Part shown: one piece after another, positions 493 through 29,141 of the stretch
How the letters are laid out: each line of letters begins with the position of its first letter
How positions within the stretch are numbered: the first letter of the stretch is position 1
NCBI RefSeq assembly: GCF_900166625.1
Contig: NZ_LT800499.1
Span: 4,250,253 to 4,297,267, forward strand
Length of the DNA: 47,015 nucleotides
Reading direction: 5' to 3'
Source: Halobacillus massiliensis
GTDB taxonomy: Bacteria; Bacillota; Bacilli; Bacillales; Halobacillaceae
Notes under the pieces: model-generated
What the model saw: the letters and a program-made list of their open reading frames with translations, nothing else
The model's database searches: none
Told to the model about the DNA's origin: nothing
Program-made: the position numbers and the translations under genes

Positions 493-625
493 GTTCCGTT
501 TATTGTAAAAAGAGATAAGCTGCTGGGAAATCGCTCGCTTTCCACTGGGAGCCGGTGAGCTAGCTCGTTGTACTCGCGGATCTCCCCCTGGCTCTATCTC
601 CCTTGCAGGAGCCTTGGCATAGCAA
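493..625 (+). repeat. Extra subfamily A repeat, degenerate copy (A1)
   Basis: Begins with GTTCCGTTTAT and carries the A-subfamily core (GGGAAAT, CTCGCTTTCC, GCCGGTGAGCTAGCTCG, GCAGGAG), but lacks the right-hand TAAACGGAAC end. It precedes the intact A copy at 655. Both copies are preceded by the same ATAGAGAAAGAGC stretch, which suggests a tandem duplication that included flanking DNA. A short ORF can be read through it but follows the repeat, not a gene. Confidence 0.8.
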
Positions 626-654
626 GTTTTTTTCAATGTTGATAGAGAAAGAGC

Positions 655-1031
655 GATTCCGTTTATCATGTGTGGAGATAAGCGGCTGGGAAATGACTCG
701 CTTTCCGCGGGGAGCTGGTGAGCTAGCTCGTTGCACTCGCGGATCTCACCTTAGCTCTATTTCCCTGCAGGAGTCTCGCCATTTCCCAGCCTCTTTACTG
801 TTGATGGTATAAACGGAACGCTGTAGTTTCAGTAACCCTCTAAAGGAAATAGTTTTCTCTTACACAATGTTCCATAAAAAACATACAGGGCCGGGGGAAA
901 CGGCGAGACTCCTATGGGAGGATAGAACAAGGTGAGATCCCGGTGGGCTAAAAGCCCGAGTAAGCTCACCGTTCACCCATGGAAAGCAAGTCTTTCCCCA
1001 GGCCCGGTTTCTATATCATAGTAAACAGAAC
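655..1031 (+). repeat. Composite A-spacer-B repeat unit 1
   Basis: Subfamily A lies at 655-819, then a spacer of about 59 bp, then subfamily B in inverted orientation at 879-1031. Ends are close to GTTCCGTTTA and TAAACGGAAC. Within A, the strands GGCTGGGAAATG and CATTTCCCAGCC form a long helix. Within B, GGGCC..GGGGAAA pairs with TTTCCCC.GGCCC. The unit fills the gap between the cysK terminator and folP, and no gene is credible in 379-1062. Confidence 0.85.
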
Positions 1032-1062
1032 ACTTTTCCCGTTTAATTAGGCTCCAGACTCA

Positions 1063-1098
1063 AAATAAAAAACCCGCGCTCCTTTTACAGAGCACAGG
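1063..1098 (-). terminator. Rho-independent terminator after cysK
   Basis: On the minus strand CCTGTGCTC pairs with GAGCGCGGG across a short loop, followed by TTTTTTATTTT. It begins 12 bp beyond the cysK stop. Confidence 0.85.
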
Positions 1099-1109
1099 CT
1101 TTCCTCATT

Positions 1110-2036
1110 TTACTCTTCCTCAAACTGATACAGAGGAGTAGAGAGATATCGTTCACCATTACTTGGAATAATCGCAACAACTTTTTTACCTTTTCCTAAT
1201 TCTTTAGCTACCTGCTTGGCAACGTGAATGGCTGCACCTGAGGAGACTCCACCTAAGATGCCGTCTTTTCTAGCAGCTTCACGAGCAGCTGCATAAGCTT
1301 CATCTGTAGATACCTGGCGGACTTCATCATAAACATCTGTATCGAGAATTTCTGGAACAAATCCAGCCCCGATTCCCTGTATTTTATGCGGACCAGGATC
1401 TCCGCCGGAAAGTACTGGAGAAGCGTCAGGTTCTACGGCATAAATTTTAAGGTTCGGGTATTTTTCTTTTAATACTCCGCCGGCTCCTGTAATCGTCCCG
1501 CCTGTACCAATTCCGGATACAAAGCCGTCAAGCTGATCGCCCATTTGCTCAACGATTTCCGGTCCTGTAGTTTCAGCATGGACTTTAACGTTGGCTTCAT
1601 TATTAAACTGCTGAGGCATAAAATATCCATTTTGCTCTTTCAGCTCTGTTGCCTTTTTAATGGCGCCTTTCATACCTTCCGCTCCAGGCGTTAAAACGAG
1701 TTCAGCTCCATAAGCACGAAGCAGATTACGACGTTCTTGGCTCATTGTGTCCGGCATGACGAGAATCGTTTTGTATCCTTTAGCTGCCGCGATCATGGCA
1801 AGGCCGATACCTGTGTTCCCGCTCGTTGGTTCGACAATCGTATCGCCCGCTTTAAGTTCGCCTGACTCTTCAGCAGCCTCTATCATAGATAGCGCGATAC
1901 GGTCTTTTACGGAGCTTCCCGGGTTCATATACTCTAATTTTAAGTAAATATCCGCAGCTTCTGGATCTGCACTTTTGTTTAGTTTTACCATAGGGGTCTG
2001 CCCTACTAATTCATTTACACTGTTCGCTATTCTCAT
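1110..2036 (-). CDS. cysK: Cysteine synthase A (O-acetylserine thiol-lyase)
   Basis: PLP enzyme making cysteine from O-acetylserine and sulfide in the cytosol. The 308-residue product has the usual family length. PLP-lysine segment SSVKDR (Lys44), phosphate-side loop TSGNTGIG (71-78) and [10 protein letters not shown] (175-184) are all visible. I place the start at the ATG at 2036 because AGGAG lies just upstream and [15 protein letters not shown] matches known N-termini; the frame stays open 27 codons further without a ribosome site. It has its own promoter and terminator, so it is monocistronic. In B. subtilis pabB-pabA-pabC-sul follow; here repeats do. Confidence 0.97.
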
Positions 2037-2079
2037 TATTTCACTCCTAATACCAAGTATTTTAATAGGATTTAATACA

Positions 2080-2108
2080 AGATTACGCAAATAATATCTC
2101 GTTGTCAA
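2080..2108 (-). promoter_or_regulatory. Sigma-A-type promoter of cysK
   Basis: TTGACA (2103-2108), 17 bp, TAATCT (2080-2085) on the minus strand, 44 bp upstream of the cysK start and downstream of the hslO terminator. No T-box-like leader is seen in the short 5' UTR. Confidence 0.75.
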
Positions 2109-2150
2109 ACATTTCAATTAACTTTTATTGAAAAAAACTAAGCATAGATT

Positions 2151-2185
2151 ACAAAAGAACAAAGCAGGACATCTGCTTTGTTCTT
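2151..2185 (-). terminator. Terminator after coaX-hslO
   Basis: AGAACAAAGCAG pairs perfectly with CTGCTTTGTTCT, followed by a T-rich stretch on the minus strand. The stem touches the hslO stop codon. Confidence 0.85.
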
Positions 2186-3062
2186 AGGTGTGGCTGGATT
2201 GCAACTCTTTCAATTCTTTAATATTAAAATGATAATCCTCGTTACAGAAATGACATTTTGCTTCTGCCCCGTGATCTTCTTCAATCATACGCTGTATCTC
2301 TTCATCGCCCAGGCTGGATATGGCCATTTCTACACGCTCTCTTGAACAGTGGCAATTAAATTCTACGGGCATTGTATCAAGAAACTGAACATTGCCGTTT
2401 CCCAGCACAGATTCTAAAATTTGCTCAGGTGTCTTTCCATCTTGAACCATTTTAGAAATCGACTCAATTTCACTTAAACGTTTTTCAATTTCCGCAGTTG
2501 TTTCTTCGCTTGCTCCAGGCATCAACTGTACAATAAAACCGCCCGCTGCCAAGATGGAGTGATCCGTATTTACAAGGACTCCCGCTCCAACCGCTGAAGG
2601 CACCTGTTCTGAATTAGCAAAGTAGTACGTAAAGTCTTCACTGACTTCCCCGGAGACAATTGGAACCTGGCCAGTAAAGTGGTCTCTCATACCTAAATCT
2701 TTTACTACGCTCAGCGTACCGCTTGTACCGACCGCCTTAGCTACGTCTAATTTTCCCTTTTCATTTAAATCAAAATCGACATGTGGGTTTTTTAAATAGC
2801 CGCGGACCTGTCCTTTGGAATTGGCATCTGCAATAATGGCACCAATCGGTCCGTCCCCTTCTACTTTTACCGTAAGCTTGTCTTCACCTTTTAACATAGC
2901 ACCCATCATAACGCTGATTGTCAGGGTACGACCAAGTGCAGCAGAAGCCGTAGCCCAAGTATCCTGACGGCGGCGTGCTTCTTCCACAGTATTTGTAGAA
3001 GATATTGCGTAAGCGCGAACCTGGCCATCAAACCCCATTGCACGTACTAAATAATCTCCCAT
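2184..3062 (-). CDS. hslO: Redox-regulated holdase chaperone Hsp33
   Basis: ATP-independent cytosolic chaperone switched on by oxidative unfolding of its C-terminal zinc centre. The four zinc cysteines are present in the expected pattern: CHC at residues 237-239 and CHFC at 270-273. The 292-residue length matches the family. It starts 3 bp after the coaX stop, so the two are co-transcribed, as in B. subtilis. The yacD (PrsA-like foldase) gene that follows hslO in B. subtilis is absent here; a terminator and cysK come next. Confidence 0.97.
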
Positions 3063-3065
3063 ATA

Positions 3066-3860
3066 TTATCCTTCTCCTTTAAATTCTTTATTATCTTTGT
3101 TCTTTTGAAAAATTTTATTCAGCCCTTTTAGCGTTAAATAAGGGTCCACAATATCGATAGTGCTTGAGTCGTCAGCGATTAGAGGAGCCAGACCTCCAGT
3201 GGCAATCACAGTAGGTTTTAAGTCAGCTTTCTCTTTCATCCTTCTGACCAGCTCATCGACCTGTCCGATATATCCATAAAACACTCCGGCCTGCATCGCT
3301 TCTACTGTAGAGGAACCAAAGACACTTTTCGGGTTTTTTATTTCTATTTTCGGCAGCTTGGCTGCTTTTGCATATAAAGCTTCCATGGAAATATTTATAC
3401 CCGGGGCAATGGCACCGCCTACGTATTCTCCTTGCTCATTAATATAGCAGTAAGTGGTTGCCGTGCCGAAATCAATGATAACCAAAGGGGCATCAAACTG
3501 CTCAAGAGCACCGACGGCATTAACGATGCGGTCTGCTCCGATTTCCCCAGGATTAGGATACTTCATTTTAAGCCCATGATCGACATTATCCTGCCCAATC
3601 ACCATAGGTTCTTTATTGAAATAATAACGAGACATTCCGACAAGAGCATACATAATCGGAGGGACGACAGATGAAATAATCACTCCGTTGATATCTCCGA
3701 ATGTTAGTCCCTCATGCTCGAAAAGCGACTTAATTAACATGCCATATTCATCTTCTGTTTTATAGCGGTCCGTTTTTACACGCCAATGATATTTTAACTC
3801 ATTATTATCAAATACACCTAATACAGTGTTTGTATTACCGACATCAAGCACGAAGTTCAT
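3066..3860 (-). CDS. coaX: Type III pantothenate kinase
   Basis: Phosphorylates pantothenate in the first step of coenzyme A synthesis. The 264-residue protein shows the ASKHA-fold signatures of the type III family: [13 protein letters not shown] (6-18, phosphate loop), GADR (108-111) and DFGTATT (130-136). A strong ribosome site (GGAGG) precedes the ATG at 3860. It lies downstream of the ftsH terminator and is tightly coupled to hslO. Type III kinases need a monovalent cation and are not feedback inhibited by CoA (family knowledge). Confidence 0.96.
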
Positions 3861-3950
3861 ACAAAAATCCTCCCGTTCCGTTTCCTTCGGCTTCCATCAT
3901 ATCACAATTAAGAGGGTAATTTCCCAAATCAACTCCCTCATTTTAAAAAA

Positions 3951-3981
3951 GAAAAAGCCACATTTCCCGGGAAATGTGGCT
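3951..3981 (-). terminator. Terminator after ftsH
   Basis: A 24-bp perfect palindrome, GCCACATTTCCC/GGGAAATGTGGC, is followed on the minus strand by TTTTTC and further T residues. It separates ftsH from coaX. Confidence 0.9.
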
Positions 3982-3992
3982 TCATCATATTA

Positions 3993-6044
3993 TTAACGAT
4001 CTTCAGGCTTGCGATTATTGTCATCTTCAGGCTCTGAAGAAGTATCGTGTTCTTTATCCGCAGAAGTTGAAGAATTTTTATCTTCCTCTTTGGACTTCAA
4101 GTTTACACGAACATTCTCATTATTGGACTGCAGCTCATCGATCTTCTTCTGTTCTTCTCGATTGGCTTCAAGCTGTTTATTATTCTTAATGGCAATTTCC
4201 TCAAGCTCTTCATCTGTTGGAAGACGTCCTTTCTTAAACAAGGACTCGATCTGGGTAGCATCGAGAGTTTCGATTTCCAACAATGTCTGAGCGATCAGCT
4301 CAAGCTTATCTTTGTTTTCAGTTAAGATCTGTTTTGCTCTGGCGTAAGAGTCATTAATGAACTTCTGAACTTCTGTATCAATATCATAAGCGATTTGATC
4401 ACTATAGTTTTGTTCATTTTGAATATCACGACCAAGGAATACTTGTCCACCACTGTTCTGTCCGAACTGAAGCGGTCCAAGCTTCTCGCTCATTCCGTAT
4501 TCAGTAACCATTTTACGGGCAATCGAAGTGGCGCGCTGGAAGTCATTGTGAGCACCTGTGGAAACTTCACCAAACATGATTTCCTCAGCAACCCTGCCGC
4601 CTAATAAACCTGTAATCTTATCGAGCAGTTCCGGCTTCGTCATAAAGTAACGGTCTTCACGCGGAAGCATTACGGCATATCCTCCGGCCTGTCCGCGAGG
4701 TACAATCGTAACTTTATGAACCATATCTGCATCATCCAGTACCATTCCGATAACCGTATGTCCACTTTCGTGGTGTGCGACAATGTCACGTTCTTTTTTA
4801 GAAATCACACGGCTCTTCTTAGCAGGTCCTGCAATTACACGGTCAATGGCTTCATCAACATGAATCATTTCAATGCTCTTGCTGTCGGAACGAGCAGCTA
4901 CAAGTGCTGCTTCATTCAGTAAGTTCTCAAGATCAGCTCCAGAGAATCCAGGAGTTCTTAATGCTATTGTCTTTAAATCAACATTTTCTGCTAAAGGCTT
5001 ATCCCTTGCATGCACACCAAGTACAGCCTGACGTCCTTTAACGTCTGGGCGATCCACCGTAATCTGGCGGTCAAAACGTCCAGGACGCAGCAAGGCCGGG
5101 TCAAGAATATCCGGACGGTTTGTTGCGGCAATCATAATGATACCTTCATTAGCACCAAAGCCATCCATCTCAACAAGTAATTGGTTAAGTGTCTGCTCAC
5201 GCTCGTCATGACCTCCGCCAAGACCAGCACCACGCTGACGACCTACCGCATCAATCTCATCAATAAAGATAATACACGGAGAATTTTTCTTTGCGTTTTC
5301 GAACAAGTCACGTACACGGGACGCACCCACACCGACAAACATTTCCACGAAGTCAGAACCACTGATGGAGAAGAACGGAACTCCCGCTTCACCAGCTACC
5401 GCTCTGGCCAGCAATGTTTTACCAGTACCTGGAGGTCCTACAAGCAGAACCCCTTTAGGAATACGCGCACCGACAGCCGAGAATTTACGAGGATCTTTTA
5501 AGAAATCAACGACTTCAACAAGCTCCTGTTTCTCCTCATCCGCTCCGGCCACGTCTTTGAAACGCACCTTTTTCTTCTCTTCACTGTACATCTTCGCTTT
5601 ACTCTTACCAAAGTTCATCACACGGCTTCCACCGCCCTGAGCCTGGTTAAGCAGGAAGATAAACAGAATAAAAATAATGACAAAAGGAATGATGGATGTC
5701 AGGACTGTCACCCATACACTAGGCTGCTCTTCTTCTTCTACCGTTAAGACACTCTGCTCCTGGGCTGTTTGAGTCACATCGTTAATGATCTGCTCATTCG
5801 CCGGAAGCTTGGCAGTGAACGTGTCACCCTCTTCAGCACCGACAAGCGTACCAGTAACCTGCATCACTCCATTGACAGGCTGCATAGTCATTTCTTCAAC
5901 TTCACCGCTGTTTAATCTATCATAAAACTCATTTACATTTAACGTTTGCTGTGGCTCACCTTGACCTCTGAATAGACCGACTACGCCGATAACTACGAGG
6001 AAGATAAGTAAGTAAAATATTGTATTCCGAAATATCCGATTCAT
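3993..6044 (-). CDS. ftsH: ATP-dependent membrane zinc metalloprotease FtsH
   Basis: Membrane-anchored AAA+ protease that degrades misfolded membrane proteins and regulators; in Bacillus it is needed for normal sporulation. Transmembrane segments lie at about 7-25 and 111-132 with an extracytoplasmic loop between. Then follow Walker A GPPGTGKT (203-210), Walker B IIFIDEID (258-265), the SRH segment [12 protein letters not shown] (315-326) and the zinc motif HESGH (425-429). The last 60 residues are a highly charged acidic tail. The ATG at 6044 has GGAGGAGG upstream. It follows tilS-hpt in the usual order. Confidence 0.98.
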
Positions 6045-6072
6045 TGCCTACCTCCTCCCAAACGAGAAAAAC

Positions 6073-6107
6073 TATAGTAAATATTATCATACGGAAATCT
6101 TACTATA
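6073..6107. repeat. Inverted repeat upstream of ftsH
   Basis: TATAGTAA (6073-6080) and TTACTATA (6100-6107) form a perfect 8-bp dyad with a 19-bp centre, 29 bp upstream of the ftsH start in the hpt-ftsH gap. It could be an operator or just AT-rich promoter DNA. I could not settle on one convincing -35/-10 pair here. Confidence 0.5.
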
Positions 6108-6162
6108 CAACTAATACCACTTGACAACAGCATGTTGGAACAATTATTAGCAGATTTGCTCA

Positions 6163-6699
6163 TTATCCACCATACACTTCTGGTTTCAAAACACCGATAT
6201 AAGGCAGGTTACGGTATTTCTCATTATAATCCAGTCCGTAACCGACAACGAATTCATCCGGCACTTCAAACCCTATCGTATCTGCTTTAATGTATGAAGT
6301 TCTTCCATCCGGCTTATCAAGCAGTGTAACAATCTTAATGGATTTTGCTTTACGATACTTAAACAGATCCACTAAATAGCTGAGCGTTAAGCCGCTGTCA
6401 ATAATATCTTCAATAATTAAAAGATCTCTGCCTTCAACCTGGGTATCAAGGTCTTTAACAATCTTTACTTCACCGCTTGATCTCATACCGCTGTAACTGG
6501 AGACATCCATGAAATCCATTTCCAGATGTGTATCGACTCTCTTTAGAAGGTCACCCATAAACGGCATGGCGCCTTTTAAAACCCCAATTGCAAGCGGGAA
6601 GCGTCCCTCGTATTCGTTTGACAGCTGTTCACCAAGTTCTTTACATTTCGCCTGAATCTCTTCTTCAGAAATCAAGATCTTCTCAATCTCGTTGTGCAT
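6163..6699 (-). CDS. hpt: Hypoxanthine-guanine phosphoribosyltransferase
   Basis: Salvages hypoxanthine and guanine to IMP and GMP using PRPP. The 178-residue protein has the PRPP-binding loop [13 protein letters not shown] (93-105) and the usual [11 protein letters not shown] segment (41-51). AGGAGG lies before the ATG at 6699. It sits 20 bp after tilS; the tilS-hpt-ftsH order is conserved in Firmicutes, and in B. subtilis Hpt and TilS regulate ftsH expression (established there, not visible here). Confidence 0.96.
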
Positions 6700-6719
6700 G
6701 AAAGCTCCTCCTACGTTTC

Positions 6720-8105
6720 TCAGTAATTTTTATAATGTAATCGAAGCCATGTACCGGAAGGGTCCCTAGTACACCCTTCACCTTTTCTTAACCCAACAAG
6801 CCATAGGACCTGACCATCATGATCAGTTACAAGCGGCCAAGTATCCCGTTCCTTAGCGGGGATTTTTTGATCGATAAAAATATCTTTTACCTTCTTCGAC
6901 CCATTCATTCCTCTAAGCTTTAATCGATCCCCCGGACGGCGTGTTCTCACAATAAGAGGAAGGCTTACGTGATTTGAATCACAAGTATAGACATACCTGC
7001 CGGCTTCCTCTCTACTGTCAGCCGCCTCCAGAGAAATCATTGAACCATCCGGAAGTGTCACTTGCTTCCCTATGTAAAGTGGTGCGTGAAACGCCGTTTC
7101 TTCCTCAGGCTGAGCAAAGGTCAACGTTATAACGTCATACGCACGAATTACCCGAAGATTTCCCGGGAAATCTAATGATGCATTAGGTTTTTGTTCTTGT
7201 AAAAGGTGAAAAAACATCTCCTCATGTAAGTAGGAGATTTCTTCAATTTGATTACCATACAGATAGTTTAATATTAGATGAAAGGCAGACCTTTGTAAAG
7301 CAAGGGGGAACTTTTGAAATGTCGTTTTTGATAAAACAGCTTTGCCTCCTTCATCGCTTGACATATCAACATTTTCGAGCAGCTTTTTCGCTTCATTATT
7401 AATAAAAGTTCGATCTTCTGTCACACGCTCGCTCATATGCTGCATATGCTCATAAAGTTTAGGGTTTATTTCCTTTAGAAATGGGAGCACATGCTTTCGA
7501 AAAGCATTCCTCGTATACTCAGTATCTTCATTTGAAGCATCAATTCTTGGCTCTAAGCCGTTCTCCTTACAGTAGCTTTGTATTTCGGCCTTAGAAAGAC
7601 AAAGAAAAGGCCGAATTAAAAAGCCGCCGGCAAACGGACGCTTTACAGGTATGCCTTGGACTGCCTCAGGCAGTGCACGGCGTGCCAGCTGCATAAGCAT
7701 CGTTTCTGCCTGGTCATCTCCATGGTGGCCTAGAGCCAGTCTGTCAGCGCCTGTCTTTTCCATAACTTCTGCGAGAAACTGATAGCGTAAGGTTCTTGCC
7801 GCTTCCTGTGTCCCGATACCTGCCCTTTTCTTATACGCAGGAACATCCACAGAGGTTCCAAAAAATTCGGCACCCCACTGAAGAGCTGCTTTCTCAACAA
7901 AACTCACATCTTCTATAGAAGCTTCACCCCGCAGGCCGTGATCGACAGAAGCAGCGATAATCCGCAGATTATACTCTTCCTTTATCGTGGTTAAAAAATG
8001 TAAAAGTGCGAGTGAATCAGGACCGCCGGAAACAGCAGCAACGATTGTTTGATTCTTTTTAATTAAATCATGCTTTTTTATAAAGGAATGGACAGTTCCA
8101 AGCAT
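6720..8105 (-). CDS. tilS: tRNA(Ile) lysidine synthetase
   Basis: Converts C34 of the CAU anticodon of tRNA-Ile2 to lysidine so that it reads AUA. The N-type ATP-pyrophosphatase loop SGGPDS is at 26-31, followed by the long C-terminal substrate-recognition region, 461 residues in all. I prefer the ATG at 8105, preceded by a GGTGGG tract at workable spacing, over an in-frame GTG at 8114. The elongator tRNA-Met at 12.57 kb also has a CAU anticodon and must be rejected by this enzyme. Confidence 0.95.
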
Positions 8106-8169
8106 TGTCCTCACCCACCTATCTCTCCTAATCCTATCACTCTAAAGCCCTATCCTGCAAAGCATTCAT

Positions 8170-9087: not shown

Positions 9088-9799
9088 AAGGATCTTCCTT
9101 ATCCATGCCGTTTCTCTTCAACGACTTATTGGTAAACGCATAAAGAGCTTCTTTTAAAGCAGGACCTGTCGGAGTATAACCGCCGCTGTCAAGCTTTGAA
9201 AATAACCCATGAATCGCGTTAAGCTCAGTCGTCCAGTCAATTCTCTGTTTGATCGTATGCTTAGGATCAGGGAAAGAATAGACACTAAACTGATTCGCCC
9301 CTGTTCTGGCATTTAAGCTCAAGGACAAATCAGCTAAAGCTTCCTTGACCGTAGGAAGCTTATGATGCATGCTGGCACTGGTATCTACGAGCACAAGGAC
9401 TTCCAAATCACACGTTTCTCCAAGATCATCTACGATTTCCACCACTTCTCCGCGCTGATCAGGCGGAAGTTCTTCAATCGTTTTCCTTTCTCCAAGAATT
9501 TGTTCAAGCTCTTTATTTACAACCCCCTGTATAGTTTGTGTCATGGCCTGCTTCGTGACCATCTGCACTGTTTCTGAAAGGTTCTTCTGATAGACTATCT
9601 GGCTGACACCCCCGCCTGATTCTGCAATTGCCTCTACTTCCTGCAGTCCCTGCGGCTCCTCACGGTCATCGAGAACCCCTATCACGTTTACGGTTACCCC
9701 CTGGTTTCTAGCTAATCCAGCGACCACGACTGGATCCTCTCCATAGTTTGAGCATCCGTCCGTAATTAATAAAATTTGTTTCAGTCGTCCTGTTTTCAT
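9068..9799 (-). CDS. yabS: Von Willebrand factor A-like protein YabS
   Basis: Function unknown. The 243 residues hold vWA elements in unusual order: ILLITDGCSNYGEDP (9-23) and a VNVIGV strand come first, a charged linker of about 50 residues follows, and the MIDAS elements DTSAS (139-143) and TPTGPAL (209-215) come last. A normal vWA domain has DxSxS and the threonine loop before ITDG. The ATG at 9799 is chosen for its GGAGGG site; an in-frame extension of 10 codons has none. Co-transcribed with yabT, which suggests a role in the forespore. Confidence 0.88.
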   Translation of the reverse strand: MKTGRLKQILLITDGCSNYGEDPVVVAGLARNQGVTVNVIGVLDDREEPQGLQEVEAIAESGGGVSQIVYQKNLSETVQMVTKQAMTQTIQGVVNKELEQILGERKTIEELPPDQRGEVVEIVDDLGETCDLEVLVLVDTSASMHHKLPTVKEALADLSLSLNARTGANQFSVYSFPDPKHTIKQRIDWTTELNAIHGLFSKLDSGGYTPTGPALKEALYAFTNKSLKRNGMDKEDPYEETGY

Positions 9800-12893: not shown

Positions 12894-13277
12894 GTCCCGT
12901 TTGCCTATTGGAAAACCGGGCCTGTGGAAACAACTCGCTTTCCATGGGCGAACGGTGAGCTTCCTCGGGCTTTTAGCCCTCCGGGATCTCACCCTGTTCT
13001 ATCCTCCCATAGGAGTCTCGCCGTTTCCCCAGGCCCTTAGCGTTTATTAGGAATAACGAAACATTGAGTTAGAGAAGACTATTTTCTTTAGAGCGGTTAA
13101 TAAAACTACGAGCGTTCCGATTATACCAACAACGGTAAAGAGGATGGGAAATGGCGAGACTCCTGCAGGGAGATAGAGCCGTGGTGAGATCCGCGAGTGT
13201 AACGAGCTAGCTCACCGGCTCCCCGCGGAAAGCGAGCTATTTCCCAGCCGCTTTTCTCCACCCAAGATAAACGGAAC
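12894..13277 (-). repeat. Composite A-spacer-B repeat unit 2 (inverted)
   Basis: B lies at 12894-13062 in plus orientation, then a 51-bp spacer, then A at 13114-13277 in minus orientation; read on the minus strand this is again A-spacer-B. The reverse-complemented spacer is clearly similar to that of unit 1 (shared TAACC.CTCTAAAG.AAATAGT). It fills the gap between the tRNA terminator and the yabR terminator, so it lies between two 3' ends. The ORF readable at 13121-13303 is inside the repeat and not credible. Confidence 0.85.
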
Positions 13278-19364: not shown

Positions 19365-19505
19365 GTTCCGTTTATCACGTTTGGAGAAAAACGGCTGGGA
19401 ATCAGCTCCCTTTTAAGCGAGAAGCCGGTGAGTTAGCTCGCTGCACTCACGGTTCTCTCCATAGCTCTATCTCCCTGCAGGAGTCTCGTCATTTCCCTTG
19501 ATCCC
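19365..19505 (+). repeat. Extra subfamily A repeat, degenerate copy (A4)
   Basis: Starts GTTCCGTTTATC and carries the A core with several substitutions (CCGGTGAGTTAGCTCG, CTCCCTGCAGGAGTCTCG), but lacks the TAAACGGAAC end. It precedes the intact A copy of unit 3, as A1 precedes unit 1. Confidence 0.8.
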
Positions 19506-19528
19506 ACTTTAAGGGAAGTAAAAAGACT

Positions 19529-19910
19529 GTTCCGTTTATTGTAAAAAGAAAAAAGAGGCTTGGAAATGACTCCCTTTCCGCGGGGAGCCGGTGAGCTAGC
19601 TCGTTACACTCGCGGATCTCACCTTGGCTCTTCTCCCTGCAGGAGTCTCGCCATTTCCCAGCCTCTTTAACGCTGATGGTGTAAACGGAACCCAAAAAAG
19701 TTCGGAGAAAAAAACCACTTCCTTTGTTCTCTTACGTTAATGTTCCGTTACTTTAAAAATATAAAGGGCCGTGGGAAACGGCGAGACTCCTATGGGAGGA
19801 TAGAACAGGGTGAGATCCCGGAAGGCTTTTGCCTGAGGAAGCTCACCGTTCGCCCATGGAAAGCGAGTCGTTTCCCCCGGCCCGGCTCACTAAATTCGGG
19901 CAAACGGAAC
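19529..19910 (+). repeat. Composite A-spacer-B repeat unit 3
   Basis: A (19529-19691), a 50-bp spacer and inverted B (19742-19910), both bounded by GTTCCGTTTA-like and TAAACGGAAC-like ends. In A, AAAGAGGCTTGGAAATG pairs with CATTTCCCAGCCTCTTT at 16 of 17 positions. The unit occupies the gap between spoVT and mfd, genes that are direct neighbours in B. subtilis. No gene is credible from 19179 to 20073. Confidence 0.85.
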
Positions 19911-20009: not shown

Positions 20010-20012
20010 CAT

Positions 20013-23000: not shown

Positions 23001-23610
23001 TCGAATCAATTTCTGTATCAAAAAGCTCGATCCGATAGGGGAATTCTGCTGTTAAAGGGTATATATCGATAATGCCTCCACGCACAGAGAATTCCCCGGG
23101 ACTGGCTACCATATCTACGCGTTCATATCCCATGTTTATAAAATGTTCCAGATAAGTATTTAAATCAATATCTTCTCCAACACGAAAAGGGAGCACGTTA
23201 TGCTCCCAATAGGATTTAGGCGGCATGATTCTCTTAATAGCAGATACAGGTGCAATCAGGACACCTGTTTTCTTGTTCAGCCACTGACTTAAGGCGTCAA
23301 TACGCTGACTCCTTAACTCAGGACTGGCTACGGCAATTTCCGAGGCAATCAATTCGTTCACGGGATAAAGGTGAACATCTTGATCCTCGGTTAATTCCAT
23401 CATATCCTCATAAAGCTGCTGTGCTTGAATAAGCTGGTGAGTCACGATGATAACCGGGCGGTTCAGCGACTCTTTTAGAATGGAGACAAGCAGGCTCCTC
23501 GAAGCTCCTGAAAGCCCGGCCACCATTTGTTCTTTCATACCTGCCTCAAAGCCATCAATCACAGATCGCACGTCGTCATGGGACTGCAAATAATTTTTTA
23601 TACCTTGCAT
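20074..23610 (-). CDS. mfd: Transcription-repair coupling factor Mfd
   Basis: Removes stalled RNA polymerase from damaged template and recruits UvrA for excision repair. Domains in order are a UvrB-like damage-recognition region, an RNA-polymerase-interaction domain (GDYVVHANHGIGKYIG), RecG-type motor with Walker A GDVGYGKTEVA and motif II VDEEQRFGV, the TATPIPRTL and TTIIETGVDIP helicase motifs, and a C-terminal regulatory domain. At 1178 residues it is full length. GGAGGAG lies before the ATG. It follows fin by 50 bp, as in B. subtilis. Confidence 0.98.
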   Translation of the reverse strand: MQGIKNYLQSHDDVRSVIDGFEAGMKEQMVAGLSGASRSLLVSILKESLNRPVIIVTHQLIQAQQLYEDMMELTEDQDVHLYPVNELIASEIAVASPELRSQRIDALSQWLNKKTGVLIAPVSAIKRIMPPKSYWEHNVLPFRVGEDIDLNTYLEHFINMGYERVDMVASPGEFSVRGGIIDIYPLTAEFPYRIELFDTEIDSIRTFDSETQRSHEKLQEVSIGPAVELLLTKEDFTRAADKLEEALSHSLKKLTKSDAKETLNAHTERDIERLRSAERFQELYKYIGYFYEEPISLLDYLPENGLIVLDEMSRINETASRLDHEEAEWYNSLLEVNQLVRGLRISFDWHDTWVKMKHPKLYLSVFMRHIANTQPQNIVNISSRQMQQFHGQMNLLKTEMERWTKQNYSVLLLAPDEARAEKIHSVLLDYGMEASVVKDSVTLPVKMPVILQGNISSGFEWPLHKLAVLTEKELFKKQTAKSKRKQKMTNAERIKNYQELKVGDYVVHANHGIGKYIGIETLKVGDTHKDFLMVKYSGNDKLFVPIDQIDLIQKYVGSEGKEPKIYKLGGSEWAKVKRKVQSSVEDIADDLIQLYAEREASKGFSFSEDGEMQRDFEAAFAYEETEDQIRCIEEIKQDMQRIRPMDRLLCGDVGYGKTEVAIRAAFKAVENGKQVALLVPTTILAQQHYETMQERFQDFGINIGLLSRFRTKKQQKETTDRLRKGLVDIVIGTHRILSKDIQFKDLGLLIVDEEQRFGVKHKEKIKQLKSNVDVLTLTATPIPRTLHMSMLGVRDLSVIETPPENRFPIQTYVLEYNPVFMREAVEREMARGGQVFFLFNRVENIERMAQEISALVPEARVAFAHGQMNETELENVMFSFLEGEFDVLVSTTIIETGVDIPNVNTLIVYDADKMGLSQLYQLRGRVGRSNRVAYAYFTYQKDKVLTEVAEKRLQAIKEFTELGSGFKIAMRDLSIRGAGNLLGAQQHGFIDSVGFDMYSQMLKDAIEAKRQGKEPEAIQPFQTELDVKVDAYIPDEYISDEKQKIDMYKQFQAIESLEDIHDIRDELIDRFGDYPEEVENLITVSSLRYHAKKARIESISEKKRKMILLMEASQSQAIDGAKLFEFANQYGRMVQLGTEDSQLKVTFTWDRQNEIKRYDIVEEFIKALPDLTREATSV

Positions 23611-23660
23611 CTTTAACTCCTCCGGAACCAGGAAGCCCGCTCTTGGAGGAGCTTCCCAGT

Positions 23661-23891
23661 TTAGTGAATAAAAAAGTCTAGTTCATGATAATGAGGATTC
23701 TGCTGTAACGACCGTTCACAGGAATCACAGATTGTTTTAATCTTCATATTGCCCTGTGCATCATACGTAATCATTTCCTTATGATCCTCTTCATTTAAAC
23801 ACTCTAAGCCAAGCTCAGAAATTGCGACACGTTCTCTGTCCAACTTTCCTACTTGGCGTTTGCAATGCCGGCAAATATAGTGAATTTGCAT
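23661..23891 (-). CDS. fin: Anti-sigma-F factor Fin (YabK)
   Basis: Small forespore protein that inhibits sigma-F and so helps the switch to sigma-G. The 76 residues contain two zinc-type pairs, CRHC (7-10) and CDSC (55-58), as in the family. The gene is preceded by a perfect sigma-F-type promoter, matching the known feedback loop in which sigma-F makes its own antagonist. It is read into mfd. Confidence 0.95.
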   Translation of the reverse strand: MQIHYICRHCKRQVGKLDRERVAISELGLECLNEEDHKEMITYDAQGNMKIKTICDSCERSLQQNPHYHELDFFIH

Positions 23892-23924
23892 AGATACACA
23901 TCTCCTCTAAAGGTGTCATGTATC

Positions 23925-23954
23925 TAGTGTTACCGGCGAAATTACCACTTATAC
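23925..23954 (-). promoter_or_regulatory. Sigma-F promoter of fin
   Basis: GTATA (23950-23954), 15 bp, GGTAACACTA (23925-23934) on the minus strand: fits GYWTA-N15-GGNRANAMTW at every position. It lies in the 67-bp gap between pth and fin. Confidence 0.88.
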
Positions 23955-23958
23955 TATT

Positions 23959-24522
23959 TTACTTCGTATTGTAATCGTTCATAACTTCAAGAAAAGGTCT
24001 GGATAACCACGCTTCACATGCCTTGGCCGACTGTTCAATGGATTCATTGACAGCTCCCTGTTCTTCCTTGGAAAAAGTGCCAAGTACGTAATCGACAACA
24101 GACATTGGGACAGAAGGGCGTCCTACCCCTACACGAAGACGTTTGAACTCTTTCGTTCCCAGCTGATCAATAATGCTGCGGATTCCATTATGTCCACCAT
24201 GACCGCCTTTCTGACGCAGGCGAATCCGTCCTGTCGGTAAGTCTAAATCATCATAGATGACAAGTACGTCTTCTGGCGGGATATCGTAGTAGTCTAAAAA
24301 TAAGCGAAGAGACTCTCCTGATAAATTCATATATGTCTGCGGCTGAAGCAATAGAACCTTTTCGCCGGAAAAATGCTCGATCGTATATTTCCCTTTGAAT
24401 TTTTCCTGCGAAAGACTCCAGTTATGTTTCCCTGCCAGTTCATCAATAACCATAAAACCTATATTATGGCGGGTTTTTTCATATTTCCTCCCTGGATTTC
24501 CAAGGCCTACAATGCACTTCAT
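23959..24522 (-). CDS. pth: Peptidyl-tRNA hydrolase (SpoVC)
   Basis: Releases tRNA from peptidyl-tRNA that drops off ribosomes; essential. The 187-residue protein keeps GLGNPG (6-11), catalytic His19 with Asn20 (TRHNIGF), DD at 91-92 and GGHGGHNG (107-114). AAGGA precedes the ATG. Called spoVC in B. subtilis because a conditional allele blocks sporulation. It lies downstream of the ctc terminator. Confidence 0.97.
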   Translation of the reverse strand: MKCIVGLGNPGRKYEKTRHNIGFMVIDELAGKHNWSLSQEKFKGKYTIEHFSGEKVLLLQPQTYMNLSGESLRLFLDYYDIPPEDVLVIYDDLDLPTGRIRLRQKGGHGGHNGIRSIIDQLGTKEFKRLRVGVGRPSVPMSVVDYVLGTFSKEEQGAVNESIEQSAKACEAWLSRPFLEVMNDYNTK

Positions 24523-24608
24523 TTAAAAATCTTCCTTTGCCTTTTCATATTCGTTCTATTATAACAGATTTACCTGAAAAAAATTGTCTAAACAGGACTG
24601 CTCCCACA

Positions 24609-24640
24609 AAAAAGGACGCAACCTTCGGCTACGCCCCTCT
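24609..24640 (-). terminator. Terminator after ctc
   Basis: GGGCGTAGCC pairs with GGTTGCGTCC across GAA (with wobbles), followed by TTTTTTG on the minus strand. Confidence 0.8.
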
Positions 24641-24655
24641 TCGTATATATTTTTT

Positions 24656-24690
24656 ATTACTCTTTTATTACTCTTTTATTACTCTTTATT
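24656..24690 (-). repeat. 11-bp tandem repeat across the ctc stop codon
   Basis: The unit AAGAGTAATAA (minus strand) occurs three times in tandem at the ctc stop codon, giving TAATAA in the reading frame at once. Added or lost units would change only the untranslated tail, because the first unit already stops translation. Confidence 0.7.
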
Positions 24691-25347
24691 TTCTGCTTGC
24701 TCGTTGTTCTCTTCCTGCTCTTCGTCAGAACCTTCTTTTTCTCCTACGACTTCAGGTTCCTGATCAGCTTCTTCAAGCTCCGGCTCTTCCGGCATTTCTT
24801 CCGGTGGAGTGACGGAAACGATCGTTGTATTTTCATCTTCCGTAATCTCATAATTACGAGCTTCTTTTAAGTCGGCAACCATAATACTGTCACCTATGTT
24901 TAACTCGGAAACGTCCACAACGATTTCTTCTGGAATATCACGAGGTTTTGCTTTTATAGCCAGTTCGTAAAGCGGCTGCTGAACAACTCCGTCTTCTTTG
25001 ACGCCGGCAGCTTCACCTTCAAGACGAACAGGTACTTGTACATCCATCTCTTCAGCCATGTTTACGATGTAAAAGTCTGCATGAAGCAGTTGATCTTTCA
25101 AAGGATCTACCTGATATTCGTGCAGCATTACGTCTACTGTATTGCCGCCATCAATATTTAAAGAAATAATTGCGTTTTTCCCTTCATCACGAACAGTTTT
25201 CAGCAGTTCCATGCTGTTTACTGAAACGTTAACAGGTTCTTTATCTTTTCCATAAACTACTGCAGGAACGTTGCCTTCCTGACGTAATTCTCTCGTTACT
25301 GATTGTTTAAGGTCTTTTCTTTGATCTGCTTTTAATGTAATAGCCAA
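24679..25347 (-). CDS. ctc: Ribosomal protein L25, general stress protein Ctc
   Basis: Two-domain L25/Ctc protein that binds 5S rRNA in the large subunit, induced by stress. Residues 1-95 are the L25 domain and 96-185 the TL5-type beta domain (DIPEEIVVDVSELNIGDSI). The last 35 residues are almost all Glu, Asp, Gln and Asn, a more acidic tail than in B. subtilis Ctc (204 residues), fitting salt adaptation. Translation starts at a TTG (25347) after GGAGGAG. A sigma-B promoter lies upstream. Confidence 0.95.
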   Translation of the reverse strand: MAITLKADQRKDLKQSVTRELRQEGNVPAVVYGKDKEPVNVSVNSMELLKTVRDEGKNAIISLNIDGGNTVDVMLHEYQVDPLKDQLLHADFYIVNMAEEMDVQVPVRLEGEAAGVKEDGVVQQPLYELAIKAKPRDIPEEIVVDVSELNIGDSIMVADLKEARNYEITEDENTTIVSVTPPEEMPEEPELEEADQEPEVVGEKEGSDEEQEENNEQAENKE

Positions 25348-25387
25348 AATAATCTCCTCCAGTTAATTAACCATCTATTTAAATCTG

Positions 25388-25412
25388 ATTCCCAACTTTG
25401 TAGAAATTAAAC
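25388..25412 (-). promoter_or_regulatory. Sigma-B promoter of ctc
   Basis: GTTTAA (25407-25412), 13 bp, GGGAAT (25388-25393) on the minus strand, close to the sigma-B pattern GTTTAA-N12/14-GGGTAT. ctc is the classical sigma-B reporter gene in B. subtilis, and the site is at the expected distance. Confidence 0.88.
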
Positions 25413-25444
25413 CTTTTTTATTACAAAACACACTAAAAAACCGA

Positions 25445-26398
25445 TTAATCAAACAAAATACTTACGGATTGACGTTCATGGACACGGATTATAGCTTCAC
25501 TGATTAACGGAGCAACAGACAGCTGGGTGATCTTATCAATCGCTTTTTCTTCACCTAGCGGGATAGTGTTCGTTACGACAAGTTCTTTTATGTTGGAGCT
25601 GTCGATACGTTCAATAGCCGGACCAGATAAAACAGGGTGTGTACAGCAAGCATACACATCTTTTGCCCCATTTTCCACTAAAGCGTTAGCCGCAAGTGTA
25701 ATAGTACCTGCTGTGTCTATAATATCATCGATCATAATCGCTGTCTTTCCTTCGATGTTACCGACGATATTCATAACTTCTGCCACGTTTGGACGCGGCC
25801 GGCGCTTATCAATAATAGCAATCGGAGCTTTTAAGCGGTCAGCCATCTTGCGGGCTCTTGTTACTCCTCCATGGTCAGGGGAAACGATTACGACATCCTC
25901 GAAATTCTTCGATTCAAAATAATCGGACAGAATGGGCACACCAACCAGGTGATCAATCGGCATATCAAAGAATCCCTGAATCTGTGGTGCGTGAAGATCC
26001 AGCATAATGACACGGGAAGCTCCTGCCGTTTCAAGAAGGTTAGCTACAAGCTTTGCCGTAATTGGTTCACGGGCGCGTGCCTTGCGATCCTGTCTCGCAT
26101 AGCCATAATAAGGCATAACAATGTTTATACTGCGGGCAGAGGCACGTTTTAATGCATCGATCATAATAAGCAGTTCCATAATGTGCTGATTGACCGGGGC
26201 ACATGTCGACTGAACGACGTAGACATCACATCCGCGAATACTTTCGTCAATGTTGATTTGAATTTCTCCATCACTAAAGCTTGTTACCGTACACTTGCCT
26301 AATTCTGTGCCTATATTCTCCGCAATTTCTTTTGCCAGCTCAGGATTAGAATTGAGAGAGAACACTTTCAATTTAGAATCCTTGTATCCAGTTGCCAT
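25445..26398 (-). CDS. prs: Ribose-phosphate pyrophosphokinase
   Basis: Makes PRPP from ribose 5-phosphate and ATP, the shared precursor for nucleotides, His and Trp. Class I signatures are visible: [12 protein letters not shown] (95-106), catalytic His135 in LDLHAPQI, the KRRPRPN flexible loop (198-204) and PRPP loop DDIIDTAGT (224-232). Length 317 matches. It follows glmU by 14 bp in a conserved pair. PRPP made here is the substrate of Hpt and the effector of PurR, both in this window. Confidence 0.98.
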
Positions 26399-26412
26399 GG
26401 ATGAACCCTCCG

Positions 26413-27792
26413 TTAATCTTTTTTATTCGGCTGCATTTTACTAGCGTAGCCTTCTTTATTCGTTTGACGGGAACGAGCGATAGATAATGCTTCTGCTGGT
26501 ACATCTTGATTAATGGTGGATCCAGCGGCTACATAAGCACCTTTTCCAACCGTAACAGGAGCAATTAAATTCGAGTTACAGCCGATAAAGGCATCATCTT
26601 CAATTGTCGTTAAATGCTTGTTAACACCATCATAGTTCACTGTAATTGTACCACAACCGACATTCACTCCGCTTCCCACTTCCGCATCTCCAATATAGCT
26701 TAAATGTGAAGCTTTGCTTCCGTTTCCGAAGGCTGCTTTTTTAATTTCAACAAAATTGCCGACTTTCACATCGTCCCCTAAAGAGGAATCAGGGCGAATA
26801 TGCGCGAAGGGGCCAATCTGCACACGCTCTCCGATGCGGCTGTCCGCTGCAACACTTTGCTTCACCACTGTTCCTGCACCAACACTACAATTCGCAATTG
26901 TTGAATGAGGTCCGACCGTTACATCGTCAGCGATCACTGTCTGCCCTTCTAAAATGGAACCAGGGTAAATGGTTACATCCTGACCAATTTGAACATTAGG
27001 ACCGATATAAGTCTGCTCTGGATCGACAAGAGTAACTCCATTGCGCATATGAGATTCATTAATTCTCTGCTTCATTAACCGTTCGGCTTTCGATAAAGCC
27101 ACACGGTCATTTACTCCTAGAGCCTCTGAGAAGTCCGTAGTCTGGTAGGCACTGACCACTTCTGCCTGATCTTTAAGTATTTGAATAACATCTGGAAGAT
27201 AATACTCTCCCTGTGCGTTATCATTGGAAACATTTTTTAAAGATTCAAAAAGCAGTTCATTATCAAAGCAATACGTACCAGTGTTGATCTCCTGTACAGC
27301 CTGCTCTCCCTCTGTAGCATCCTTTTGCTCTACAATACGCTCGACCTGGCCATTTCCACCACGAATCACACGCCCATAGCCTGTTGGATCTTCAGCATGA
27401 GCTGTTAAAATTGTAGCCTTTGCCCCTTTTTCCAAGTGATGATTTACCATGTTTTGCAAGGTTTCATCCGTTAATAAAGGAGTATCGCCACAAGCAACAA
27501 TTGTAACACCTTGTTTTCCTGCCAGAATGCTTTCCGCTTGCTGGACGGCATGTCCAGTTCCAAGCTGTTCTTCCTGGATTGCATAATGGCTGTTTTTTCC
27601 GAGCTGGTCTTGTACTTTTTCAGCACCATACCCAACAACAGTTATTAATTCATCAAGCTGTAATTTATTCAGTTGGTCAACTACGTGCTGGACCATTGGC
27701 TTTCCGCATACCGGATGCAAAACTTTATAAAGCTTTGACTTCATACGAGTGCCTTGTCCAGCGGCTAATACTACTGCAAATTTTTGGGTCAT
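26413..27792 (-). CDS. glmU: Bifunctional GlmU (uridyltransferase / GlcN-1-P acetyltransferase)
   Basis: Makes UDP-GlcNAc for peptidoglycan and other wall polymers. The N-terminal pyrophosphorylase domain carries [12 protein letters not shown] (9-20). The C-terminal left-handed beta helix (from about 250) shows hexapeptide repeats such as [11 protein letters not shown] and [10 protein letters not shown], and the HLSYIGD and NYDG acetyltransferase segments. The 459 residues match. GGAGG precedes the ATG, and it has its own sigma-A-type promoter. Confidence 0.98.
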
Positions 27793-27824
27793 GAAGCAAC
27801 CTCCATCCTATTTATCCATTATGA

Positions 27825-27853
27825 ATAATATCTTAAATACCGTATGATTTCAA
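27825..27853 (-). promoter_or_regulatory. Sigma-A promoter of glmU-prs
   Basis: TTGAAA (27848-27853), 17 bp, TATTAT (27825-27830) on the minus strand, 32 bp before glmU and downstream of the spoVG terminator. Confidence 0.75.
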
Positions 27854-27892
27854 CAGAGAGCTCGTTCCAAAATAAGGGGATCTCTACTCAAA

Positions 27893-27938
27893 CAAAAAGG
27901 AAGCCCGACCCCCCTTGAAGGTCTGACTTCCTTTTTAA
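27893..27938 (-). terminator. Terminator after spoVG
   Basis: AAAGGAAGTCAGACC pairs with GGTCGGGCTTCCTTT, then TTGTTTG, on the minus strand, just beyond the spoVG stop. Confidence 0.9.
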
Positions 27939-27949
27939 GGAATTCTTAA

Positions 27950-28246
27950 TTAAGAAGCTCCTGCTTCTTCAAATTCTACTTCAGATTCCGCATCACCGGC
28001 ATTGTGATATTCCTCAAGAACTGCTTCCTGAATCTTACCGCGTGTCCCTGAGTTGATAGGGTGGGCGATATCACGGAATTCACCATCAGGAGTACGCTTG
28101 CTTGGCATTGCAACAAACAATCCATTGTTGCCATCAATCACCCTAATGTCATGGACAACAAACTCCTGATCCAAGGTAATAGAAGCAATTGCTCGCATTC
28201 TTCCTTCGGTATTTACGCGTCGCAGTCTTACGTCAGTTACTTCCAT
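27950..28246 (-). CDS. spoVG: RNA-binding regulator SpoVG
   Basis: Small RNA-binding regulator affecting septation and sporulation in Bacillus and virulence in other Firmicutes. The 98 residues match the family from [10 protein letters not shown] through the [20 protein letters not shown] core to [12 protein letters not shown]. The C-terminus is acidic. It has a sigma-H promoter nearly identical to the B. subtilis one. The yabJ (ridA) gene that precedes spoVG in B. subtilis is absent; a repeat cluster takes its place. Confidence 0.98.
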
Positions 28247-28286
28247 TAAAGTTCACCACCTTTTCCCAAAAAAGAACTTATTAAAC

Positions 28287-28316
28287 CAATTCCACAAGAC
28301 AAAAAGAAAATCCTGC
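28287..28316 (-). promoter_or_regulatory. Sigma-H promoter of spoVG with AT-rich upstream region
   Basis: GCAGGATTT (28308-28316), 12 bp, GTGGAATTG (28287-28295) on the minus strand, matching RNAGGAWWW-N11/12-RNNGAATWW almost completely. The DNA upstream (about 28317-28390) is very AT rich, like the AbrB-bound box ahead of B. subtilis spoVG. Confidence 0.9.
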
Positions 28317-28492
28317 TAATTTCACAAAAAAATTTGAAAGATATTAAAAATTCTAATTTTATAAGTCCTTTTCCTTATGAATTATCCTTTATATAGGTGA
28401 TAAGTATTTATAGGATTTTTATTGCAGGAAAAACCGGTTCTGTTTGCCCTAATTTAGAAAATGAAGCCAGGAATCCTATAGGAAATTTCGTT

Positions 28493-28662
28493 GTTCCGTT
28501 TACCGTGATAAAGAGGATCGGGCCTGGGGAAGCAACTCGCTTTCCATGGGCGAACGGTGAGCTTCCTTGGGCTTTAAGCCCACCGGGTCTCACCTTGTTC
28601 TATCCTCCCATAGGAGTCTCGCCGTTTCCCCCACCCTTTATGTTTATTAAAAATAAAGAAAC
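28493..28662 (+). repeat. Extra subfamily B repeat (B4)
   Basis: Complete B element from GTTCCGTTTAC to AATAAAGAAAC. It and the next B (28712) are each preceded by AATCCTATAG and GGAAATT.C.TTGTTCC, so the pair looks like a segmental tandem duplication that included flanking DNA. Confidence 0.85.
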
Positions 28663-28711
28663 CTTGGAATAGTGAGGGTAAATCCTATAGAAAGTTGTAG
28701 GAAATTCCCTT

Positions 28712-29095
28712 GTTCCGTTTACTTTGATCAAGAGGATCGGGCCTGGGGAAACAACTCGCTTTCCATGGGCGAACGGTGAGCTTCCTCGGGCTTTAAGCCC
28801 TCCGGGATCTCACCCTGTTCTATCCTCCCATAGGAGTCTCGCCGTTTCCCCCGGCCCTTTACGTTTTTTGAGTAACGGAACATTTAAGAGGAGAGGATCG
28901 ATCTCATGAGAGAGCTTACTGAGATTACAGCGTTCCGTTTATACCAACAACGGTAAAGAGGATGGGAAATGGCGAGACTCCTGCAGGGAGATAGAGCTAA
29001 GGTGAGATCCGCGAGTGGAACGAGCTAGCTCACCGGCTCCTCGCGGAAAGCGAGCTATTTCCCAGCCGCTTTTTTCCTGCCCCAGTAAACAGAAC
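28712..29095 (-). repeat. Composite A-spacer-B repeat unit 4 (inverted)
   Basis: B (28712-28881, plus orientation), a 50-bp spacer and A (28932-29095, minus orientation). The A copy is nearly identical to the A copy of unit 2 over most of its length, and this B is nearly identical to the B of unit 2. It lies between the spoVG promoter and the purR terminator. Nothing else is credible in 28400-29156. Confidence 0.85.
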
Positions 29096-29102
29096 TGCCA
29101 TC

Positions 29103-29141
29103 ATTCCCCAGCCGCTTCCTCTTACTACAGTAAACGGAACT
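29103..29141 (-). repeat. Repeat-end remnant
   Basis: CCCAGCCGCTTCC...CAGTAAACGGAACTGC repeats the last 40 bp or so of the adjacent A copy, a short tandem duplication of the element end. Confidence 0.65.

Follow-up and report, generated by a model that had tools for sequence, protein, structure and literature searches.

What kind of entity recurs, as a pair of oppositely oriented repeats, at four intergenic sites of a 47,015-nucleotide stretch of Halobacillus massiliensis DNA (the whole stretch is called the window here)? According to the initial annotation of this DNA, two repeat subfamilies, A and B, never occur alone, enclose a short spacer and may move or function as one unit. With a probability of roughly 60%, the A-spacer-B unit is interpreted here as a non-autonomous structured mobile element, consisting of an inverted pair of unlike hairpins around a conserved spacer. 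It would resemble bacterial interspersed mosaic elements (BIMEs) and the inverted doublets of repetitive extragenic palindromic (REP) sequences named REPINs, or else miniature inverted-repeat transposable elements (MITEs). This interpretation is derived from the fixed pairing, the conserved one-strand fold, the many lineage-specific copies, the mostly empty orthologous gaps and the placement downstream of genes.

The A-spacer-B unit in the window and beyond

The four units described for the window were all recovered, with lengths of 377-384 bp (Table 1), as were the extra A copies starting at positions 493 and 19365 and the extra B copy at 28493, the latter being complete. Each module is about 165 bp long (160-165 bp), and 119 positions are spanned by the covariance model (CM) R1. 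In the consensus, module A is bounded by GTTCCGTTTA..ATAAACGGAAC and module B likewise by GTTCCGTTAC..GTAAACGGAAC, the ends of the whole unit being of the GTTCCGTTTA..TAAACGGAAC type. A and B are indeed oppositely oriented, but the layout proposed as convergent is divergent on the strand that folds, since A largely corresponds to the reverse complement of B; on that strand the modules point outward. The reported relatedness of the spacers of units 1, 2 and 4 was found again, and it can be extended to unit 3, whose spacer is related, by eye, to a divergent subtype present at L118 and L138.

In the host genome (4.31 Mb; Mfd identity 81-87% to the Halobacillus loci and 79% to Thalassobacillus), blastn with unit 1 yielded 175 first-look candidates, 40 of them being scored. 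Pattern searches gave 180 matches to the A core with up to one mismatch (81 on the plus and 99 on the minus strand) and 138 matches to the B core with up to three mismatches (63 and 75); the reversed control patterns matched 0 and 1 times for A and not at all on either strand for B. Pairing was scored in a systematic sample of 800 kb, drawn as 20-kb stretches at 40 evenly spaced positions, which avoids selecting units for being composite. Among the 26 clusters encountered, 24 contain A and B in the order of a copies (if any), A, spacer, B and b copies (if any), the other two are lone B modules, and none violates the order; two pairs of clusters (L119, L139) go back to segmental duplication. 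That A and B never occur alone is therefore true of 24 of the 26 sampled clusters, not of all. At least 44 of 85 B cores matched in this genome are accompanied by an A core at the spacing predicted for a unit, and, among the matches listed, a misordered or misoriented A core lies within 600 bp of none of the 85. For the unit consensus and the end-repeat, flank and distance counts, identical copies were first merged into one. From 44 distinct full units, a consensus of 385 bp was obtained with a recognisably conserved spacer, which is thus related outside the window as well; the median pairwise identity of units in this genome is 84.9%. The outer a and b copies run in the same direction as the module they repeat and are mostly shortened at the inner end: with the window included, 16 of 17 a copies stop at or before position 150 of 165, and 10 of 13 b copies begin at or beyond position 30.

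For relatives, R1 was used, and the best 82 (family), 24 (order) or 12 (class) candidates per genome were scored, the module counts per genome thus being lower bounds. Matches were obtained in 43 of 44 family genomes, in 114 of 150 order genomes (65 of 83 genera) and in 77 of 299 class genomes, 62 of these outside the order. Among the stretches of the Halobacillus genomes G003, G007 and G010 and of Ornithinibacillus G188, which were picked around matches and give no estimate of density, those of G188 contain a single module in 42 of 45 clusters. Because single modules are common outside the genus, the wider entity is the hairpin by itself, of which the pair is one arrangement; the view of the whole unit as the entity that moves or functions fits this genome and genus, where the pair is what repeats, but is not supported as a rule for all genera. 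A search of Rfam matched no module of the window or of seven relative loci above the gathering score; with unit 1, three matches appeared at E<=5, the best at E 0.72 and all far below the gathering score. A description of the family is also absent from the papers listed in searches of an open-licence library, and nothing is claimed beyond those searches. The hairpin-repeat family is large and, apparently, not catalogued as one family.

Fold, facing and unlike halves

Judged from the sequences, a single predicted hairpin of about 119 nt underlies both A and B, which have diverged into subfamilies of it. The fold was derived from an alignment of 98 of 111 modules from the host genome, other Halobacillus and other genera, placed in a single orientation. 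In the structure of 34 pairs, 88.4% of the cells are paired and double changes occur in 30 of the 34 pairs; 550 cells are changed on both sides, compared with 162.6 +/- 14.4 in shuffles, and the covariation score is 0.433, compared with 0.168 in shuffles and no more than 0.098 after sliding of the partner. Although relatives can outscore shuffles without any structure, the whole-stem replacement seen in the outer stem, where UA, CG, GC and AU all occur at one pair, goes beyond relatedness alone. On the B strand, which reads GACTCC..GGTGAG, G.T oppositions outnumber C.A oppositions by 261 to 86. Excluding helix 3 and a T.G pair that is fixed (87) leaves 129 to 34, with two pairs supplying 86 of the 129; helix 3 is off by one column between the A and B types, which inflates the C.A and unpaired counts. 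Because of this excess on one strand, the fold is taken to act in that strand, as RNA or as single-stranded DNA. The consensus unit as a whole has a predicted fold of -197.6 kcal/mol (z -12), and, as in REPs, REPINs and BIMEs, an inverted doublet with a spacer is able to form one hairpin.

Read on the folding strand, left modules point to the left and right modules to the right. All 75 multi-module clusters found in stretches of the host genome, G003, G007 and G010 show this facing. At the mfd loci it is kept by nine Halobacillus pairs and by ten in other genera, with none reversed, and at 47 further loci by 22 of 23 multi-module clusters, the exception (L246) concerning an extra module some 800 bp off.

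Modules inverted to each other in this way are never closely alike. Inverted neighbours (n = 73) have a maximum identity of 0.84, with four of the 73 at 0.82 or above, a value reached by 22-45% of random module pairs. Direct neighbours in the host genome have a median identity of 0.91 (n = 15), the sole such case in G003/G007 being at 0.74, and modules match their closest counterpart elsewhere in the genome at a median identity of 0.96 (host genome, G003) or 0.92 (G010). When types are cut at 22% distance, same-type pairs make up one of 31 in G003/G007 versus 5.7 expected. We infer that matched arms, which would form a long palindrome, are lost and that lineages keep subfamilies alike in fold but unlike in sequence; such a loss would account for the two families A and B. 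Unlike halves would also be produced by a transposon whose left and right ends differ, albeit one that explains the avoidance among the multiple types of G003 less easily. Should it be general that halves agree in fold and not in sequence, compensatory evolution would be the visible record of palindrome intolerance.

A mobile pair of this kind would depend on an enzyme that recognizes each module as a folded single strand. Opposite orientation of the modules would provide one correctly folded module per DNA strand in either orientation of the unit, and A and B would be forced to diverge with the fold kept, identical inverted arms being a long palindrome that bacteria would not tolerate.

Empty gaps and hairpin copies in a sister species

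Comparison of orthologous gaps revealed relatives mostly without the pair, the gap of unit 2 being the exception (see below). The unit-1 site is free of modules in nine of ten other genus genomes, with a gap of 90-296 bp, and holds a single module of another subtype in the sister species G010. At the unit-3 gap, 16 of 16 Halobacillus mfd loci lack the pair, L038 having a single module; at the unit-4 gap, which measures only 163-229 bp in 13 of 15 Halobacillus loci, the pair is missing from 14 of the 15 and present in L037.

A related unit family of G010, with the ends CAGGCTGTCGAGAAAG..CTACAAGCTG (CAG..CTG), is frequently found between two copies of a hairpin. At L176, L179, L180, L185, L188 and the cysK site (L187 = L301), a terminator-like hairpin occurs on both sides of the unit, abutting its ends or lying within a few bases of them where the ends can be located. 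This pattern was noticed among 11 sites, to which L333 and L334 were added afterwards from the match list. At L334, a 29-bp hairpin is copied at 28 of 29 positions, its asymmetric loop shows the direct orientation, and the strict cut is passed; the copy at L333 is shorter and weaker and passes only the looser cut. With one rule for all G010 sites, 7 of 13 pass the strict and 8 of 13 the looser cut, as do 0 and 2, respectively, of 122 module-free G010 gaps. The hairpin-copy cut is not passed at L175, L177, L178, L181 and L186, of which L178 and L181 were placed in this unit family by module likeness alone. Flanks of different units, when re-paired, gave no doubled hairpin, and nine module-free relatives show, by eye, one hairpin at cysK. 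The doubled hairpins are locus-specific, and the length of the duplicate tracks the hairpin (about 20-34 bp) instead of being fixed. For G010, this is read as insertion at a hairpin with duplication of the hairpin, which suggests that in the sister species units can settle at the hairpins marking gene ends.

From this, a more specific scheme may be put forward tentatively, as a possibility rather than an expectation, namely mobile DNA that uses structure twice. The two strand-specific hairpins of the unit would share their fold and not their sequence, and insertion, as at the terminator-like hairpins of G010, would occur at intrinsic-terminator hairpins by cutting at both hairpin feet. The target duplication would then be the hairpin itself (about 20-34 bp, depending on the site), and both neighbouring genes would keep a terminator. 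The location of units between two terminator-like hairpin copies, frequent in one sister species, constitutes a second testable rule beside that of the unlike halves, and either, should it hold generally, would be relevant to the spread of repeats without gene breakage and to the choice of structured DNA as a target.

Two known systems are close to this scheme. Intrinsic-terminator hairpins guide the insertion of group IIC introns; these are not known to duplicate their target, and the unit showed neither intron structure nor a reverse transcriptase. Insertion sequences (IS) of the IS1202 group are described as generating unusually long target duplications of 16-28 bp and, for the ISAjo2 type, as having the outer ends TGT..ACA (PMC10132070). 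The duplications are comparable to the hairpin copies of about 20-34 bp at G010 units, whereas the CAG..CTG ends of the latter and a copy length varying with the hairpin are different.

Mobility weighed against other explanations

Several results weigh against a mobile pair. The gap of unit 2 contains modules in several relatives (L092, L094, L095 and the Pontibacillus locus L048); the site is therefore old or was hit repeatedly. No direct repeats of 3-9 bp abut the ends of 46 units of the host genome, and 2-bp repeats are at chance level. No transposase was found for the unit, the search having covered Y1_Tnp and not IS1202-like IS. Within units, the distance matrices of A and B are weakly correlated (Mantel r 0.16, p 0.088), a weaker correlation than invariable copying of entire units would produce; r is 0.35 (p 0.009) for A and spacer and 0.05 (p 0.24) for spacer and B. 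Maintenance of the A:B pairing by coevolution within the unit was considered and is not supported, complementarity being -171.2 within and -170.7 between units (p 0.25). Hairpin copies on both sides were found at only two of the 46 host units (L138, L010), by which a hairpin-duplicating insertion of this A-B family is only hinted at. Doubled hairpins were found neither in G003/G007 (0 of 33), nor in the 44 clusters of 47 other loci, nor at the seven units of the host type among 15 pairs of G010. Strong hairpins beside host units (22 of 92 flanks) are hardly more frequent than in other 3' regions (19.2% of 193 stop-codon windows). Finally, outside Halobacillus, modules that stand singly in tandem gaps are sense to the gene in 41 cases and antisense in four (26:3 in Ornithinibacillus, 15:1 at other mfd loci), which points to RNA.

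This sense bias leads to the alternative of a functional RNA element in 3' untranslated regions or between genes, acting, for example, as exonuclease block or processing site. The inverted pair would serve transcripts from both sides, and the copies would be kept by host selection. In L280, L281 and L285, stretches with both gene directions, six of six singles follow the gene and not the replication arm. Gene context, assigned from simple open reading frame (ORF) calls, is in line with such a role in that divergent gaps are avoided: of 30 host units, 24 could be placed, ten in convergent, 14 in tandem and none in divergent gaps (16%, 64% and 20% of gaps overall), at a median of 67 bp to the stop-codon side, and a gap type was assigned to 60 of the 67 clusters in G003, G007 and G010 (29 convergent, 28 tandem, three divergent). 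The one-strand G.T preference, the strong compensatory evolution and the stable predicted fold of the consensus unit would fit equally. Against an RNA role speak the missing sense bias of Halobacillus singles (four sense, five antisense in G003/G007 and G010), the strong differences in copy number and site occupancy among species, the position of window units 1 and 3 beyond the terminator-like hairpin of the upstream gene, and the core being split by other sequence in two of eight Ornithinibacillus singles inspected. The RNA element is rated as rather unlikely, yet as a serious competitor of the mobile pair, and both roles could coexist. The module as an intrinsic terminator is not supported: no T-run directly follows it in eight Ornithinibacillus examples, and a crude scan found terminators in 3 of 26 cases upstream and 3 of 26 downstream. 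In the Ornithinibacillus stretch L280 (about 6,700-7,050), a single module lies, by eye, within a larger element bounded by GAGGTTGGGACA..TGTCCCAACCTC; modules may thus be carried inside other MITE-like elements.

If the unit is mobile, the REP-associated tyrosine transposase (RAYT) of the host, recognizable by the Y1_Tnp domain, would be the mobilizer in a true REP/REPIN system. REPINs are inverted REP doublets with a spacer and able to form one hairpin (PMC3116915), and the architecture of the unit is like theirs. A Y1_Tnp match is present in 11 of 11 genus genomes (single copy in nine), and the module-rich G003 and G007 share, by eye, the RAYT type of the host. The sole host copy, however, is degenerate, with two in-frame stops, while those of the other genus genomes have no internal stops. 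No module was detected in 139,015 bases around the 11 Y1_Tnp loci, covering about 6 kb per side, with the contig of G007 ending some 0.3 kb past the gene on one side. Y1_Tnp is absent from 11 of 44 family genomes, ten of which still carry modules (G041 at least 82); three of the four module-poorest family genomes (0, 4 and 5 modules) also lack it. Since modules are missing near Y1_Tnp and occur in genomes free of it, the unit is not filed as a REPIN, although it may work like one, and mobilization by the host RAYT is held to be very improbable. ORF translations beside the Y1_Tnp genes at L212, L214, L216 and L217 (G010, G009, G008 and G002) repeat VPGT-like motifs, which suggests a different short palindrome as the own REP of those RAYT-like genes.

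The degenerate Y1 transposase of the host is situated in a region of contig G000:C2, the host genome being G000, that lacks an exact A core over about 446 kb (about 653,300-1,099,600) and an exact B core from 652,922 to 1,156,002, the nearest listed B core with one mismatch being at 1,134,833. The sampled stretches L121, L122, L140 and L141 within it contain zero clusters; the region may be a large acquired one.

Passive spread, by which units would be copied within larger segments through duplication and gene conversion and would have no movement of their own, is scarcely probable. Some near-identical copies are indeed located inside larger near-identical segments of 873 bp to 6.9 kb, and the weak A-B correlation would fit shuffling by conversion. 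On the other hand, no relationship among the flanks of 33 left and of 34 right ends is apparent by eye, save for the linker adjoining the module, units have the median identity given above, and the doubled G010 hairpins are specific to their loci. The largest segments are those of L113/L114 (G000:C2:440000-456500 and 1196000-1204000), near-identical up to 6.9 kb (99.97%) and carrying identical units; the four units listed there are therefore copies by segmental duplication. At L111, L115 and L139 (G000), near-identical flank copies are separated by N stretches of about 1.8-2.6 kb, probably owing to scaffolding.

Several catalogued repeats come close to the proposed mobile pair. In Escherichia coli, BIMEs contain mixed Y/Z pairs, and REP doublets are found mostly 3' of genes; the unit resembles them in both respects. 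REPINs and BIMEs have in common with the unit that they are inverted hairpin doublets with a spacer, extragenic, present in high copy number and arranged in composite arrays. Unlike them, the unit has fixed instead of alternating facing and halves that do not match. Its modules of 119-165 nt exceed the 20-40 bp stated for REP repeats (PMC3733652). Linkage to a RAYT gene is likewise missing, while RAYT genes are described as flanked by two cognate inverted repeats (PMC2817692). The same source describes repeat abundance as correlated with RAYT presence; for the present module, the family-wide counts given above point both ways. To MITEs, the unit is similar in its terminal inverted repeats and its 138-180 core copies, and also in being non-coding if the two program-called ORFs of 84 and 91 aa are set aside, the only ones to overlap window units. 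As to the fixed target duplication of MITEs, direct repeats of 3-9 bp were not found at host units, and hairpin-long direct copies occur at some sites as described above.

Among repeats of Bacilli, bcr1-bcr18 are presented (PMC3446304, PMC6542083) as intergenic repeats of 100-400 bp with many copies, specific to the B. cereus group and associated with a TTTAT motif, bcr1-3 being described as MITE-like. By description only, the module is similar in size, intergenic location and multiplicity, and differs in spanning many families of Bacilli. Bhal-1 of Bacillus halodurans is a stem-loop repeat of 74 bp with 36 copies (PMC2267715), for which the accessible description, the only basis of comparison with the module, gives no pairing or strand rule; Bhal-1 might represent part of the present family.

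Table 1. Modules, spacers and additional copies of the four units in the window
Feature	Positions	Strand	Basis
Unit 1, extra a module (A-type, positions 1-157)	493..650	+	nhmmer A 119 bits; CM R1 517-627
Unit 1, module A, ends GATTCCGTTTA..ATAAACGGAAC	655..820	+	CM R1 680-794, 101.6 bits
Unit 1, spacer	821..868	+	Alignment with other unit spacers
Unit 1, module B	869..1031	+	CM R1 888-1006, 110.6 bits
Unit 2, module B	12894..13050	-	CM R1 12917-13036, 124.7 bits
Unit 2, spacer (copy L011)	13051..13110	-	Spacer alignment
Unit 2, module A	13111..13277	-	CM R1 13139-13253, 97.8 bits
Unit 3, extra a module (positions 1-148)	19365..19517	+	CM R1 19389-19504, 45.5 bits
Unit 3, module A	19529..19691	+	CM R1 19553-19666, 100.6 bits
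Unit 3, spacer, divergent subtype (copy L157)	19692..19745	+	Spacer alignment
Unit 3, module B	19746..19910	+	CM R1 19766-19884, 126.2 bits
Unit 4, extra b module (complete, positions 2-161)	28493..28650	-	CM R1 28519-28637, 104 bits
Unit 4, module B	28712..28871	-	CM R1 28738-28857, 127 bits
Unit 4, spacer (copy L022)	28872..28930	-	Spacer alignment
Unit 4, module A	28931..29095	-	CM R1 28957-29071, 92.6 bits
Unit 4, adjoining truncated remnant of another a module	29096..29141	-	By eye in flank alignment; no hidden Markov model match of its own

Unit 4 occupies the interval from a PurR-like gene to spoVG (window positions 28247-29209), the position of yabJ in B. subtilis.

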